A stretch of DNA of 64,000 nt from Umbribacter vaginalis (GTDB lineage Bacteria > Actinomycetota > Coriobacteriia > Coriobacteriales > Eggerthellaceae), in assembly GCA_001552935.1 (NCBI GenBank), contig KQ959676.1, forward strand, positions 113,948-177,947, in the 5' to 3' direction. A program made the position numbers and the translations under genes. Below are positions 4,855-30,608 of the stretch, piece by piece. Each line of letters begins with the position of its first letter. Positions within the stretch are counted from its first letter, which is position 1. Under the pieces are notes generated by a model. It did no database searches, had not been told where the DNA came from, and was given only the letters and a program-made list of their open reading frames with translations.

Positions 4855-5591
4855 ACGTACCTATCCTCCCACGTCACTATGAGCTTATCAGGATCGATGA
4901 TGCCCGGCACAACCATGTCGCCTGCTTCAAGTGTGAAGAAGTCAGAAGCTAGATCGACATACGCCTTACCGCCACCTGTGTGCACAACGCTTTCCTGCTC
5001 GCAATCGATGATGATTGTGCCAGCGGTATCCGTGTGCACATTTAAGTAGTGCGTAAATGCGCCATTGTGGTACTTCTTAATGGTCGTTACACCTGATGTG
5101 TGCTTTGTTAGTGTGAATGTCGGGTATGTTGGCTGTGTGCCGCCAATGTTTAGCGGTGCGTCACTTCGTGCATAAACAGCTTGGCTATGACGGGCGCCGT
5201 ACGCGATCGGGTCAATGATTAAGAACGTAAGTTCAAGTTCCGTTTTGTTTTCAAAAATAGAAATCGTATCATCGCCTTGGTAAATGGCTAAATATGAACG
5301 ACTTGTATCATCAGGTAAAATAAGGCGCGCGGGCTTATTTGCGAGCAACGCTTGTGTTAACGCACGACGATATTCTACTACCTCAGCAAGCGCATGTTTG
5401 CGCAAGCGCGCATGGAGCGTTATCGTGTATGGTTCGAAGCCATCAATGCTCACATGCGGCACTTGTTGCCCAGGAACGAACGTTGTTGTCACCTTGCGTT
5501 TTGGCTGAACAGGACGCTTTATATCGTCCACCAGCACCCAGCGAGAAAGCTCTACGCCATTAAACACCGTTAAGTTATCAATATAGATCAC
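4851..5591 (-). CDS. Distal tail protein (Dit)
   Basis: The 246-aa protein matches the siphophage tail protein family (Sipho_tail). The N-terminal part contains the 'GVELSRWVLVDDIKRP' segment of the ring domain, and the middle part the typical 'IDPIAYGARHSQAVYA' stretch before the galectin-like C-terminal domain. It follows the tape-measure gene with a 4-bp overlap and would form the hexameric hub at the tail tip. Translation starts at GTG, preceded by AGAGGAG. Confidence 0.85.
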   Translation of the reverse strand: MIYIDNLTVFNGVELSRWVLVDDIKRPVQPKRKVTTTFVPGQQVPHVSIDGFEPYTITLHARLRKHALAEVVEYRRALTQALLANKPARLILPDDTSRSYLAIYQGDDTISIFENKTELELTFLIIDPIAYGARHSQAVYARSDAPLNIGGTQPTYPTFTLTKHTSGVTTIKKYHNGAFTHYLNVHTDTAGTIIIDCEQESVVHTGGGKAYVDLASDFFTLEAGDMVVPGIIDPDKLIVTWEDRYV

Positions 5592-8307
5592 AGCGCAGCT
5601 CCTCTCGCCTTAGCTAGTGCACTTGCACCGACCGCCAGCTCGCCTGATATCTTTGTCGAGTTCAAATACACCGAATTATCCTTTTGCAGCAATAGCTCAA
5701 GCAGCTGTATCATCTTGTCGAGTTTATCGCCATATTCTTGTTCATCTGCGCTTTTATCAGGCGTATCGATGAACTGGTTAAGCTTATCAATCGGCAATAC
5801 CGCCTCTGTGCCAGCTTCACCAACACCAATAATACTCGGGGAGCTGAAAATGCCGCCCTTTGCGTACCAGTCGACGCTCAACGTTGGTATGCTTGGTGGG
5901 CTAAGAGAAAAAGAGCCTTTAATCGAGAAGTGCGGCAGCTTAATCTTTGGAAATTCAATGTGCATCCCTGCGAAGAAGCCCACAATTTTACCTGGAATAT
6001 CGGCAATGAAGCTCACAGCGTTATCCCATATGCTTCGTAGCGTATCAGCAGCTGAACGAAAGAAGCTAGCAATGCCCTCGGGAATACTTGTAAAGAAATC
6101 AATTATCGCCGTTGGATTGCTCGAAAAAAAGCTTACGACAGCATTCCATATACCGCTTATAAGCTCCCATGCTTGCGAGAAGAAGCCACTAATGCCGCCA
6201 CCAATACCAGCAAAAAAGCCTATTATCGCAGCTGGTACTGGCGCGAAAAAGCTAATAACACCCGTCCAGATGTTAATTACAAGCTCCCCTGCAGCTTGAA
6301 AAATACCGCCAATGACTTCGCCAGCACCGCTCAAGAAGCCTGAAATCGCGCCCACAATTGTGCCGAAGAAGTCACACACTGCTTGCCATGCGCCTTGTAT
6401 CGTTTGCGCTGCCGTTGTAAATGCCCCAACGACCGCTTCCCAAATGCCGATTACAGCGTTACGAAAGCCTTCGTTTGTATCCCACAAAGTCTTGATGCCA
6501 ATTACCAGCAGCGCTATTGCCGAGATAATCGCAAGGATAGGATTAGCCTTCATTACAGCATTGACCGCAGCAAACGCGCCTTGAAAACCTTTCAGCGTCT
6601 CAATAATCGGCGCAATCGCTTTGAAAGCCATAAAGCCGGCGACAGCAGGACCGATAATGCCAGCTAAAGGTGTGAGCGTTTGTAATATTGACGATACGAT
6701 AGGCACCATAGCACTCATAATTGGCAGCACTGCTTGCCCAAGCCCGATAAGGCTTGTCACGCCTGCCGTGACAACAGGGATTGCGAAGTTAATCGCATTT
6801 ACAATCATTGTACAAACATTAGCGATGACCTGCCCAAACGATTGAAACGCGCTGCCATCGTTTGCCGAGTTGCCAAGTGCGGCGCCGATGTCCGTAAACG
6901 CTTGCGATATCGTTGTTTTGAGCGTATCAAGCGCGCTGCTCAAGTCGCCGAAATCGACGCCAGCGAATAGCCCGCTTGTGTCAAGTGTTGCACTCTTTAG
7001 CTGGTCTTGTATAAGCCCGATAAGCTTGCCTGCTACATCAGGGATTGATGTAATGGCGTTTATGCCCATCGAGATAGCTTGCCCAATGCCGCTCGATACG
7101 ACACTAGCCAGCTCACTCCAGTTTATGCTTGTAAAGAAAGTAGCAATAACGCCTGCCAGAGCAGGGATTGCTGTTGATAGCACTGCTGGCAGCGCTTGTG
7201 CGATATTCTTTGCCAGCGATACGATTACTGGCAGCAAGTTCTTCGCCACATTGCCAATGCTCGTAATGAGCTTAGCGGTCATGCCGTCAATATCGCCTCG
7301 CGGGTCAGCTAATGCCGTGAGCCAGTTTTCCCAAGCAGCTTTCATTGTGTCAATGCTACCTGATATGGTATGCGCAGCTTCGCGAGCCGAGTTGCCCGTC
7401 ATGCCTTGCGCTTCTTGTATATCGTGAATAGCTTGTACTACATCGCCGAACTTCTCGATTGTTAAGTCGCCTGCACGTCCGTTAGCTTTTTCGTATGCGT
7501 TTGCGTCCTGAATTAAGCGCTGCATCTCTTCACGTGTGCCGCCGTATCCTAGGCGCAGGTTATCTAACCATTTACACCCTCGGTTTCCCGATATTTGTAA
7601 GGGGATTAGACTATATCTTCAACTTGCCAGTGCAAGTTGGTGCGCACTTCCAGCTGCGTGCTAATAGCAGCTGTACTGGGTAACCAGCCCATAGTCGTTA
7701 CACTTTCCCGCATAAGCGGGCTTAGCACGGGATTGTCATAGGCTTAGCCCTTAGAGTTCCCCCGTTAGCAAGGTTTTGCCCTCACACCCTTAGCAAGGTT
7801 CACGCACGGTTACTGCATAATCGCTTATGCAGCAGACATTAGATTTATCGTGTAATTTTGTTTTGCAAAACCTTGATACGCATTCTGCACATCGCGCAAG
7901 TTCGAGCCGAACACGCTCGTATTATCAGCCATATCGTGAATTGCTACATCCCCAAGTTGCGCTGCTTTTTGCACATCACCGCCAAGCGATTGCTTCAGCG
8001 ACATACCGAACAGGTTAACTTGATCCATATATTCATTGATCGATATGCCTGCCGTATCGAATGCGCCTTGCGCGTTTTTAATTATGCTATCGGCTGCGCT
8101 TTCAAAGATTGTTTCTGCGCCGCCTTGAAGCTGCTCGAACTGCGCAAAAGATTTTGTTGCTTGAGCAACCATCGCACCAGCTGACGCGCCAATCGCTGCA
8201 AACGATGCGCAGGCTGCCTTTTGGAAGCCCGAAAACGTTTTGCTGCTAAAGCCTTTCAGTGACGGGATAATCGATATATATGCACTTCCGACCTCTGTAT
8301 TTGCCAC
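5588..8307 (-). CDS. Tape measure protein, interrupted by a group I intron
   Basis: The gene is two exons: 8307-7847 (461 nt) and 7568-5588 (1981 nt). Joined, they give exactly 814 codons (813 aa). The junction codon is AT|G, and the protein reads 'GFAKQNYT-M-LDNLRLGYGGT', the sequence normal for tape measure proteins. The uninterrupted reading runs into a stop inside the intron after 160 codons. Exon 1 holds the N-terminal domain ('AYISIIPSLKGF'). Exon 2 has hydrophobic helices (about residues 230-480) and Trp/Phe-rich repeats of the type 'FFAGIGGGISGFFSQAWELISGIWNAV'. The protein sets tail length. It starts at GTG, preceded by GGAGGTGG. Confidence 0.9.
7569..7846 (-). ncRNA. Group I self-splicing intron (IA-like), no ORF
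   Basis: The 278-nt intervening sequence carries, in order on the minus strand, the conserved elements of phage group I introns. These are ACGGGGGAAC (7764-7755), GACAATCCCGTGCTAA (7738-7723), GTAACGACTAT (7701-7691) and AAGATATAGTCT (7619-7608). GACTAT and ATAGTC pair perfectly as P7. Exon 1 ends in U and the intron ends in G, as the class requires. Intron TCTAAT pairs with exon-2 GTTAGA (P10), and the next base G can form the U.G pair at the 5' site. P1 beyond three pairs is weak, so the 5' boundary could shift slightly. A CTGCATAA/TTATGCAG hairpin fits P2. No homing endonuclease is encoded. Confidence 0.9.
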
Positions 8308-29263: not shown

Positions 29264-30340
29264 ATGAGTGTATCAAAAACAAGAAGTGGCACGTGGCGCG
29301 TGCGCATCGATGTCGGCAACAAGCTTGACGGTACGCGCTCAACTGCCTCGAAAAACTTCAAGACAAAGCGCGAGGCTATCGCGTACGAAGCATTGATGCG
29401 CGAAAAGGTGCGCTCTGACGTGGTAATACGCGACAAAGTGCGCCTAGACGATTATGTGCTTGATTGGTATTTACCCGATATTGCTCCTCGTGTACGGCAT
29501 AGCACGCTTGTAGCCTATAAGGCTGACCTGCGCAAACGCATACTACCTATGCTTGCAGGGTACTATATCAGTGACATAACAAACTCCGATATTCAACGCA
29601 TGATAGATGCATGCTCAACGCCTAAGCTTGCAAGGCGTGCGCGTGAAGTGCTGCGCCAAGTGCTTAACCACGCGAAAGCACACGACTTCGTGCACGAAAA
29701 TGCCGCCTGTGGTACGTTTAAGATACCGCCGCCAAACGTATACCCAGATGAGCACAACGGCACATGGCTCACGTCGTTTGAGGCGATTGATGCCTACCTC
29801 GACAAATTGCAAGGCTCGGCGTTCTATCTACCTGCGCTTATCGGTTTATCGCTCGGACTTCGTAAAGGCGAGATTTTCGCGCTAAATTGGGAGGACGTAG
29901 ACTTTTCACGCCGTCTTGTGCATGTGCGACACACTTATGTGCTCGAAGATAGCGGCTACAAGCTTATGCCGCCAAAGACGCGAGAAAGCGTAAGGAGCAT
30001 ACCTATCCGCGAAAGGCTATATATAGAGCTTAAAGAGCTAAAGGCGGCGCAGAACGCAAAATACAAGCGCGTTAAAGGCGCGATTGTCGTCAATAGGTAT
30101 GGCAATAGACGTAGTCCTGAGAAAGCCGCTAAAACGTGGCACCGTTATGCCGCTTCTCACAGCATCGAGTATGTAAGCTACTTAAACATGCGCCATAGCT
30201 TTGCAACGTCGTGTTTGAACGCTGGCATTGATGTTACTAAGGTAAGCAAATTGCTCGGGCATACCAACATTACGACCACGGTTAAGCGTTATGTTCGTTT
30301 CAAGCCTGACGATTTAGTGCAAGATTTCCGCAGGCTATAA
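29264..30340 (+). CDS. int: Tyrosine-type phage integrase
   Basis: The 358-aa protein is a tyrosine recombinase with an N-terminal arm-binding part (1-60), a core-binding domain (about 60-155) and a catalytic domain. Active-site residues are Arg200 (GLRKGE), Lys238 (PPKTR), Arg310 (NMRHS), His333 (LLGHTN) and Tyr343 (KRYVRF). In the HxxR box the His position is Leu307, an unusual change. It is encoded next to attR and points at it. It would catalyse integration into the tRNA-Ala gene. The ribosome site is weak (GAAAG). Confidence 0.95.
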   Translation: MSVSKTRSGTWRVRIDVGNKLDGTRSTASKNFKTKREAIAYEALMREKVRSDVVIRDKVRLDDYVLDWYLPDIAPRVRHSTLVAYKADLRKRILPMLAGYYISDITNSDIQRMIDACSTPKLARRAREVLRQVLNHAKAHDFVHENAACGTFKIPPPNVYPDEHNGTWLTSFEAIDAYLDKLQGSAFYLPALIGLSLGLRKGEIFALNWEDVDFSRRLVHVRHTYVLEDSGYKLMPPKTRESVRSIPIRERLYIELKELKAAQNAKYKRVKGAIVVNRYGNRRSPEKAAKTWHRYAASHSIEYVSYLNMRHSFATSCLNAGIDVTKVSKLLGHTNITTTVKRYVRFKPDDLVQDFRRL

Positions 30341-30530: not shown

Positions 30531-30562
30531 AATGGTGGAGCCTAGGGGGATCGAACCCCTGA
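30531..30562. repeat. attR (prophage right attachment site)
   Basis: The repeat matches attL (25 identical bases, one mismatch, six more matches). It overlaps the 3' end of the tRNA-Ala gene, so the phage restores the tRNA after insertion. Confidence 0.9.
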
Positions 30563-30608
30563 CCTCATGGCTGCCAGCCATGCGCTCTCCCAGCTGAGCT
30601 AAGGCCCC
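30533..30608 (-). tRNA. tRNA-Ala (anticodon GGC)
   Basis: The 76-nt gene folds as a full cloverleaf: acceptor GGGGCCT/AGGCTCC with the G3:U70 pair that identifies tRNA-Ala, D arm GCTC/GAGC, anticodon loop CTGGCAG (GGC), T arm AGGGG-TTCGATC-CCCCT, and encoded CCA. Its 3' 24 bp belong to the phage att core. Confidence 0.97.

Follow-up and report, generated by a model that had tools for sequence, protein, structure and literature searches.

A compact, endonuclease-free group I intron at a widely occupied codon of a coriobacterial prophage tape-measure gene

Sequence analysis confirmed that the insert interrupting a prophage tape-measure gene of Umbribacter vaginalis is a real group I intron. It occupies positions 7569–7846 on the minus strand of the window, the 64,000-nucleotide stretch of contig KQ959676.1 analysed here, and is 278 nt long, with G as its last base and no endonuclease open reading frame (ORF). 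The assignment is based on a match to Rfam RF00028, on covariation and on comparison of its junction with intron-less relatives. With a probability of about 0.93, we favour an active group IA-like intron that formerly bore an endonuclease gene, is now immobile and would restore an 813-residue tape-measure protein.

The interrupted gene and its junction

Both exons lie on the minus strand and match tape-measure families. Exon 1 (7847–8307, 461 nt; PHROG 6900, E 3e-45) begins with GTG at 8307 and stays in frame to the AT at 7848–7847, ending in AAT TAC ACG AT, while exon 2 (5588–7568, 1,981 nt with the stop codon; PHROG 58, E 5e-41) picks up the second frame at 7568 with G TTA GAT AAC CTG. Excision of 7569–7846 joins 461 and 1,981 nt; the resulting 814 codons contain a single stop, at the very end, and the exons are open throughout, with no lesion apart from the intron. 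The joined peptide reads KQNYT-M-LDNLRLGYGGT, and the sequence expected across the junction of spliced RNA is ACACGAT-GTTAGATAAC. The initial annotation had given the same coordinates, intron length, exon sizes and peptide, and all of these hold, its 814 codons being right when the stop is counted.

The insertion point falls between the second and third bases of a Met codon in a conserved tape-measure stretch, YQGFAKQNYT-M-LDNLKLGYGGT. Twenty-five intron-less relatives, comprising 20 viral contigs (near-copies included) and 5 genomes of the host's bacterial family, are continuous across the junction, with the consensus FAK(Q/N)N(Y/F)(T/S)-M-LDNLKLG; an intron-less Lactococcus phage also reads through the site. 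Within the host's family, a related tape-measure gene was found in 6 of 138 genomes, and the 5 besides the window genome are uninterrupted. IMG/VR contig 2775506811 contains the window's own sequence and was not counted as independent evidence, because its excerpts (L002 and L039) are 100% identical to the window. The neighbouring genes are those expected of a prophage: their products are an integrase, a GH25 lysin, a prophage tail endopeptidase, an SPP1-type distal tail protein and a terminase-like protein, the last with a match slightly under the Pfam cut-off. A tyrosine integrase gene (29264–30340, plus strand) adjoins a tRNA gene (30536–30608, minus strand), a pairing that likely marks a prophage attachment end.

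A covariance search had been proposed as a check on the intron. In a focused search, Intron_gpI (RF00028) matched 7839–7587 of the minus strand across model positions 1–253 of 253 (38.2 bits, E 3.2e-8), yet this is below the 50-bit gathering score, which is why a default Rfam scan of the window returned tRNAs only and no intron match. The intron is the sole Intron_gpI match in the genome (genome-wide search, E 2.1e-8), and a related intron (L048) scores 54 bits with the same model. The folding energy of the intron RNA lies far under that of shuffled sequences (z −4.0).

Secondary structure and covariation

The core helices P3, P4, P6, P7 and P8 occur in order, and P3 crosses P7. We scored a 71-pair model (P1, P2, P3, two P3–P4 hairpins, P4, P6, P7, P7.1, P7.2, P8, P9, P9.1 and P10) on 14 introns that had been gathered by sequence near the 5′ end rather than by P3 or P8; P5 was left out because its pairs could not be fixed. 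Across these introns, 99.5% of pairs are standard, the pairs having been picked while several of the sequences were in view, and two-sided changes occur at 29 pairs. The covariation score is 0.427 versus 0.160 in shuffles, and control structures slid along the sequences were at most 41% paired. Two-sided changes were found in P3, P4, P6 and P8, while P7 is invariant. The ordered core elements, the perfect P7 and the AAGAUAUAGUC element named in the initial annotation are all present.

All elements lie on the minus strand. P1 (7835–7849) is short in the window, with three exon pairs plus one; exon GAU (7849–7847) pairs with intron GUC (7837–7835), placing a U.G pair at the 5′ splice site, and is invariant in 14 of 14 introns. 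The intron strand of P10, UCUAAU (7838–7843), pairs with GUUAGA of exon 2 (7568–7563) at 6 of 6 positions in the window and at 5–6 of 6 in all 14. P10 and the terminal G at 7569 support the splice sites. P2 (7813–7832), which is closed by a GNRA-type loop (GCGA), is paired in 100% of cells. The 5′ strand of P3, GUGCGUG (7801–7807), pairs with 7646–7640 (the 3′ strand, 7640–7646 in the model), with two-sided change in 3 of 7 pairs. An alternative P3 pairing, GGUGUG/CGCACC, proposed from four sequences, was dropped because the GUGCGUG pairing changes two-sidedly in many relatives. Between P3 and P4 lie two extra hairpins, here named P3.1 and P3.2 (7771–7798), with two-sided change in 6 of 8 pairs. 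The model then places P4 (7765–7761 with 7731–7727) around the P5 region (7727–7765), followed by P6 and P6a (7702–7726). The 5′ strand of P7, GACUAU (7691–7696), pairs perfectly with AUAGUC (7614–7609), the latter inside AAGAUAUAGUC. Hairpins P7.1 and P7.2 (7652–7690) both covary, with two-sided change in 8 of 10 pairs; such hairpins between P7 and P3 mark subgroup IA. P8 (7621–7638) has a loop of a few nucleotides only, the same loop that holds the endonuclease gene in most relatives examined, and P9 and P9.1 (7577–7604) carry a GAAA loop, with two-sided change in 4 of 4 P9.1 pairs.

This structure bears directly on whether the window copy is a group I intron that has decayed and lost its splicing, leaving the tape-measure gene and the prophage dead. 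The sub-threshold Rfam score is compatible with decay, as are two mismatches among the 71 pairs of the window copy, at the last pairs of P3.2 and P7.1. These mismatches are both peripheral, however, whereas P3, P4, P6, P7, P8, P9 and P10 are intact, P7.2 has a compensated sequence found in the window only (AGCUGC/GCAGCU) and both exons remain open over 813 codons. Since a dead intron should gather uncompensated changes, we consider decay improbable. Still harder to credit is a pair of separate genes translated from unspliced RNA, giving a 160-residue head and a 645-residue tail. Possible starts and stops exist in both ORFs, but visual inspection showed no well-spaced ribosome-binding site ahead of the ATG at 7525, the protein of relatives is continuous across the junction, and the conserved ribozyme fold would be left unexplained. 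The window intron is endonuclease-free and probably active in splicing.

Introns at the same codon and loss of the endonuclease gene

Relatives were found by blastn, which yielded the three annotated phages named below, then with a P2-region pattern in viral contigs and Bacillota MAGs, and then with a looser 5′-splice-site pattern. We extracted 36 distinct introns, including near-copies (for example, L035/L036 and L051–L053), and 36 of 36 lie after the AT of the window's Met codon (codon 154), a site partly built into the search because extraction demanded an ACGAT exon end and an exon 2 starting Leu/Met-Asp/Glu-Asn. Outside tape-measure genes, matches to the loose 5′-splice-site pattern yielded no intron by these extraction rules. 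The occupied codon is found in Lactococcus phage 38502 (KX160204), Streptococcus phages Str-PAP-1 (KP208803) and Javan271 (MK448723), and about thirty further contigs. The introns of these three phages share the P1–P10 layout of the window intron, including the P3–P4 hairpins, and are 75–79% identical to it over the shared core; unlike it, they are 859–893 nt long and have a P8 loop that contains an endonuclease gene. In their records the tape-measure gene is annotated as separate pieces, with the endonuclease genes annotated in the gap between them.

The initial annotation had regarded a tape-measure host gene in a coriobacterial prophage as unusual, a view that neither the shared codon nor published work bears out. 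Three tape-measure introns of vibriophage ICP1 are spliced, as determined by RNA-seq and RT-PCR, and one can be empty of endonuclease (PMC10448857); ICP1 is an unrelated phage, and its likeness to the window lies in the interrupted gene and in the possible lack of an endonuclease. Among 397 genomes of the same order, the intron was matched in two others, one of which, a complete genome from another family (G429, locus L072), has a 783-nt intron with an HNH-like ORF at the same codon. In the other (G618, L073/L074), a tape-measure-like gene holds a G+C-rich form of the intron and, it seems, another insert downstream. Our literature search, which covered few subscription journals, found no report of group I introns in Coriobacteria.

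More distant systems share individual features. Mycobacteriophage BAKA has a 265-bp group I intron, shown to splice, in a minor tail gene (PMC3706429); as in the window, an actinobacterial phage has a short group I intron in a gene for a virion structural protein, although the gene differs. Twort-like staphylococcal terminase introns have a related core and a P9/P9.1 nearly identical to that of the window in a different host gene, their blast match running mainly from P3.2/P4 onward.

The 36 introns fall into 10 short (269–348 nt) and 26 long (782–971 nt) forms, the latter long enough for an endonuclease gene. In nearly all long relatives whose ORFs were read, an ORF of ~160–190 residues finishes at the intron's P8/P7 end, and both P8-loop ORFs tested contained HNH_3 and NUMOD4 domains. 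The window intron has no stop-free frame of 60 codons and, in line with the initial annotation, does not encode a homing endonuclease; elsewhere in the genome no convincing endonuclease was found, the best candidate being a 24-residue match at E 0.06. Four of the short introns (L033, L035, L038 and L048) have a P8 loop that still encodes the endonuclease C-terminus, for example KGNKKNWYFELVEDIV. Ten short introns, four of them retaining the last endonuclease codons, suggest stepwise loss, in an order that we infer, and the window copy is best read as the end-product of deletion, predicted to splice but not to move itself. This parallels the empty ICP1 intron (PMC10448857) and, as far as the work is described in a later article, the lysin introns of Streptococcus thermophilus phages, a site-specific family that includes deletion derivatives (Foley et al. 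2000, via PMC3952083), the host gene there being lysin rather than tape measure.

Several other arrangements were observed. At the same site, an Oscillospiraceae MAG contig (L047) has an intron with a GIY-YIG gene upstream of P7 instead of HNH in P8: introns of one kind have been entered by two endonuclease types. In six introns (L040, L042, L043, L046, L025 and L034), an A+T-rich stretch enlarges the P6 loop and includes a TATAAT-like sequence, perhaps a promoter of the downstream endonuclease gene. In L025, L026 (Streptococcus phage IPP23), L038, L090 and L111, LDNLKLG is followed by another group I-like insert, ~20 nt further downstream than the first site; therefore, this tape-measure region has at least two intron sites.

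Acquisition and significance

In the tape-measure tree, the window gene groups with two intron-less relatives (L003 and L004; support 100/100), within a set that adds L005 and L007 (99/97). This nesting among intron-less genes fits horizontal acquisition of the window intron and speaks against vertical inheritance in the tape-measure lineage with losses in relatives and no acquisition by homing. Such losses are possible in principle, and intron-bearing and intron-less rows do cluster on the gene tree, with 5 changes of the presence label versus 11 in shuffles. Between phages, however, the introns resemble one another far more closely than the genes do, although RNA constraint could explain part of this: the intron cores of the window and L041 are 83% identical, their proteins only 41–45%. 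We therefore regard purely vertical descent as unlikely, though the least so of the three alternatives. An intron tree meant to find the donor did not resolve the branching and singled out no donor.

In 36 of 36 intron-bearing alleles, the Leu codon that follows the junction is TTR (TTA/TTG) and completes P10; such a codon is present in 1 of 21 alleles lacking the intron (Fisher p about 2e-14, a figure that overstates the contrast as the rows are related). The ACG codon preceding the junction is also fixed, but the search pattern required it, so it is not evidence. The window and L030 share an LDNLRLGYGG stretch with CGC CTA codons, which is only a hint of possible co-conversion because the intron of L030 is not the closest.

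Under the favoured reading of an active, immobile intron, P1 would offer the 5′ splice site through its U.G pair, a guanosine held at P7 would attack it, and P10 would place exon 2 beside exon 1 for ligation, yielding the message for the 813-residue protein. The ancestor would have carried an HNH/NUMOD4 homing endonuclease in the P8 loop, presumably cutting the conserved tape-measure target in past homing. Deletion of this gene would have left a compact intron incapable of its own movement, which would be retained because the phage requires the tape-measure protein. We lean somewhat towards regarding these introns as an unnamed family, defined by one tape-measure codon and two covarying P3–P4 hairpins, that has spread between phages of Bacillota and Coriobacteriia, repeatedly shedding its endonuclease.

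Judged from its sequence, then, the window intron is a further case of a widespread same-codon set rather than a surprise, and the prophage tape-measure gene, although it looks broken, is probably intact. Such introns escape default annotation, both at the Rfam cut-off and in gene calling. With full, partly deleted and clean copies at one site, the set forms a natural series for studying endonuclease loss by homing introns, and it also lends itself to testing intron transfer across phages from different phyla.
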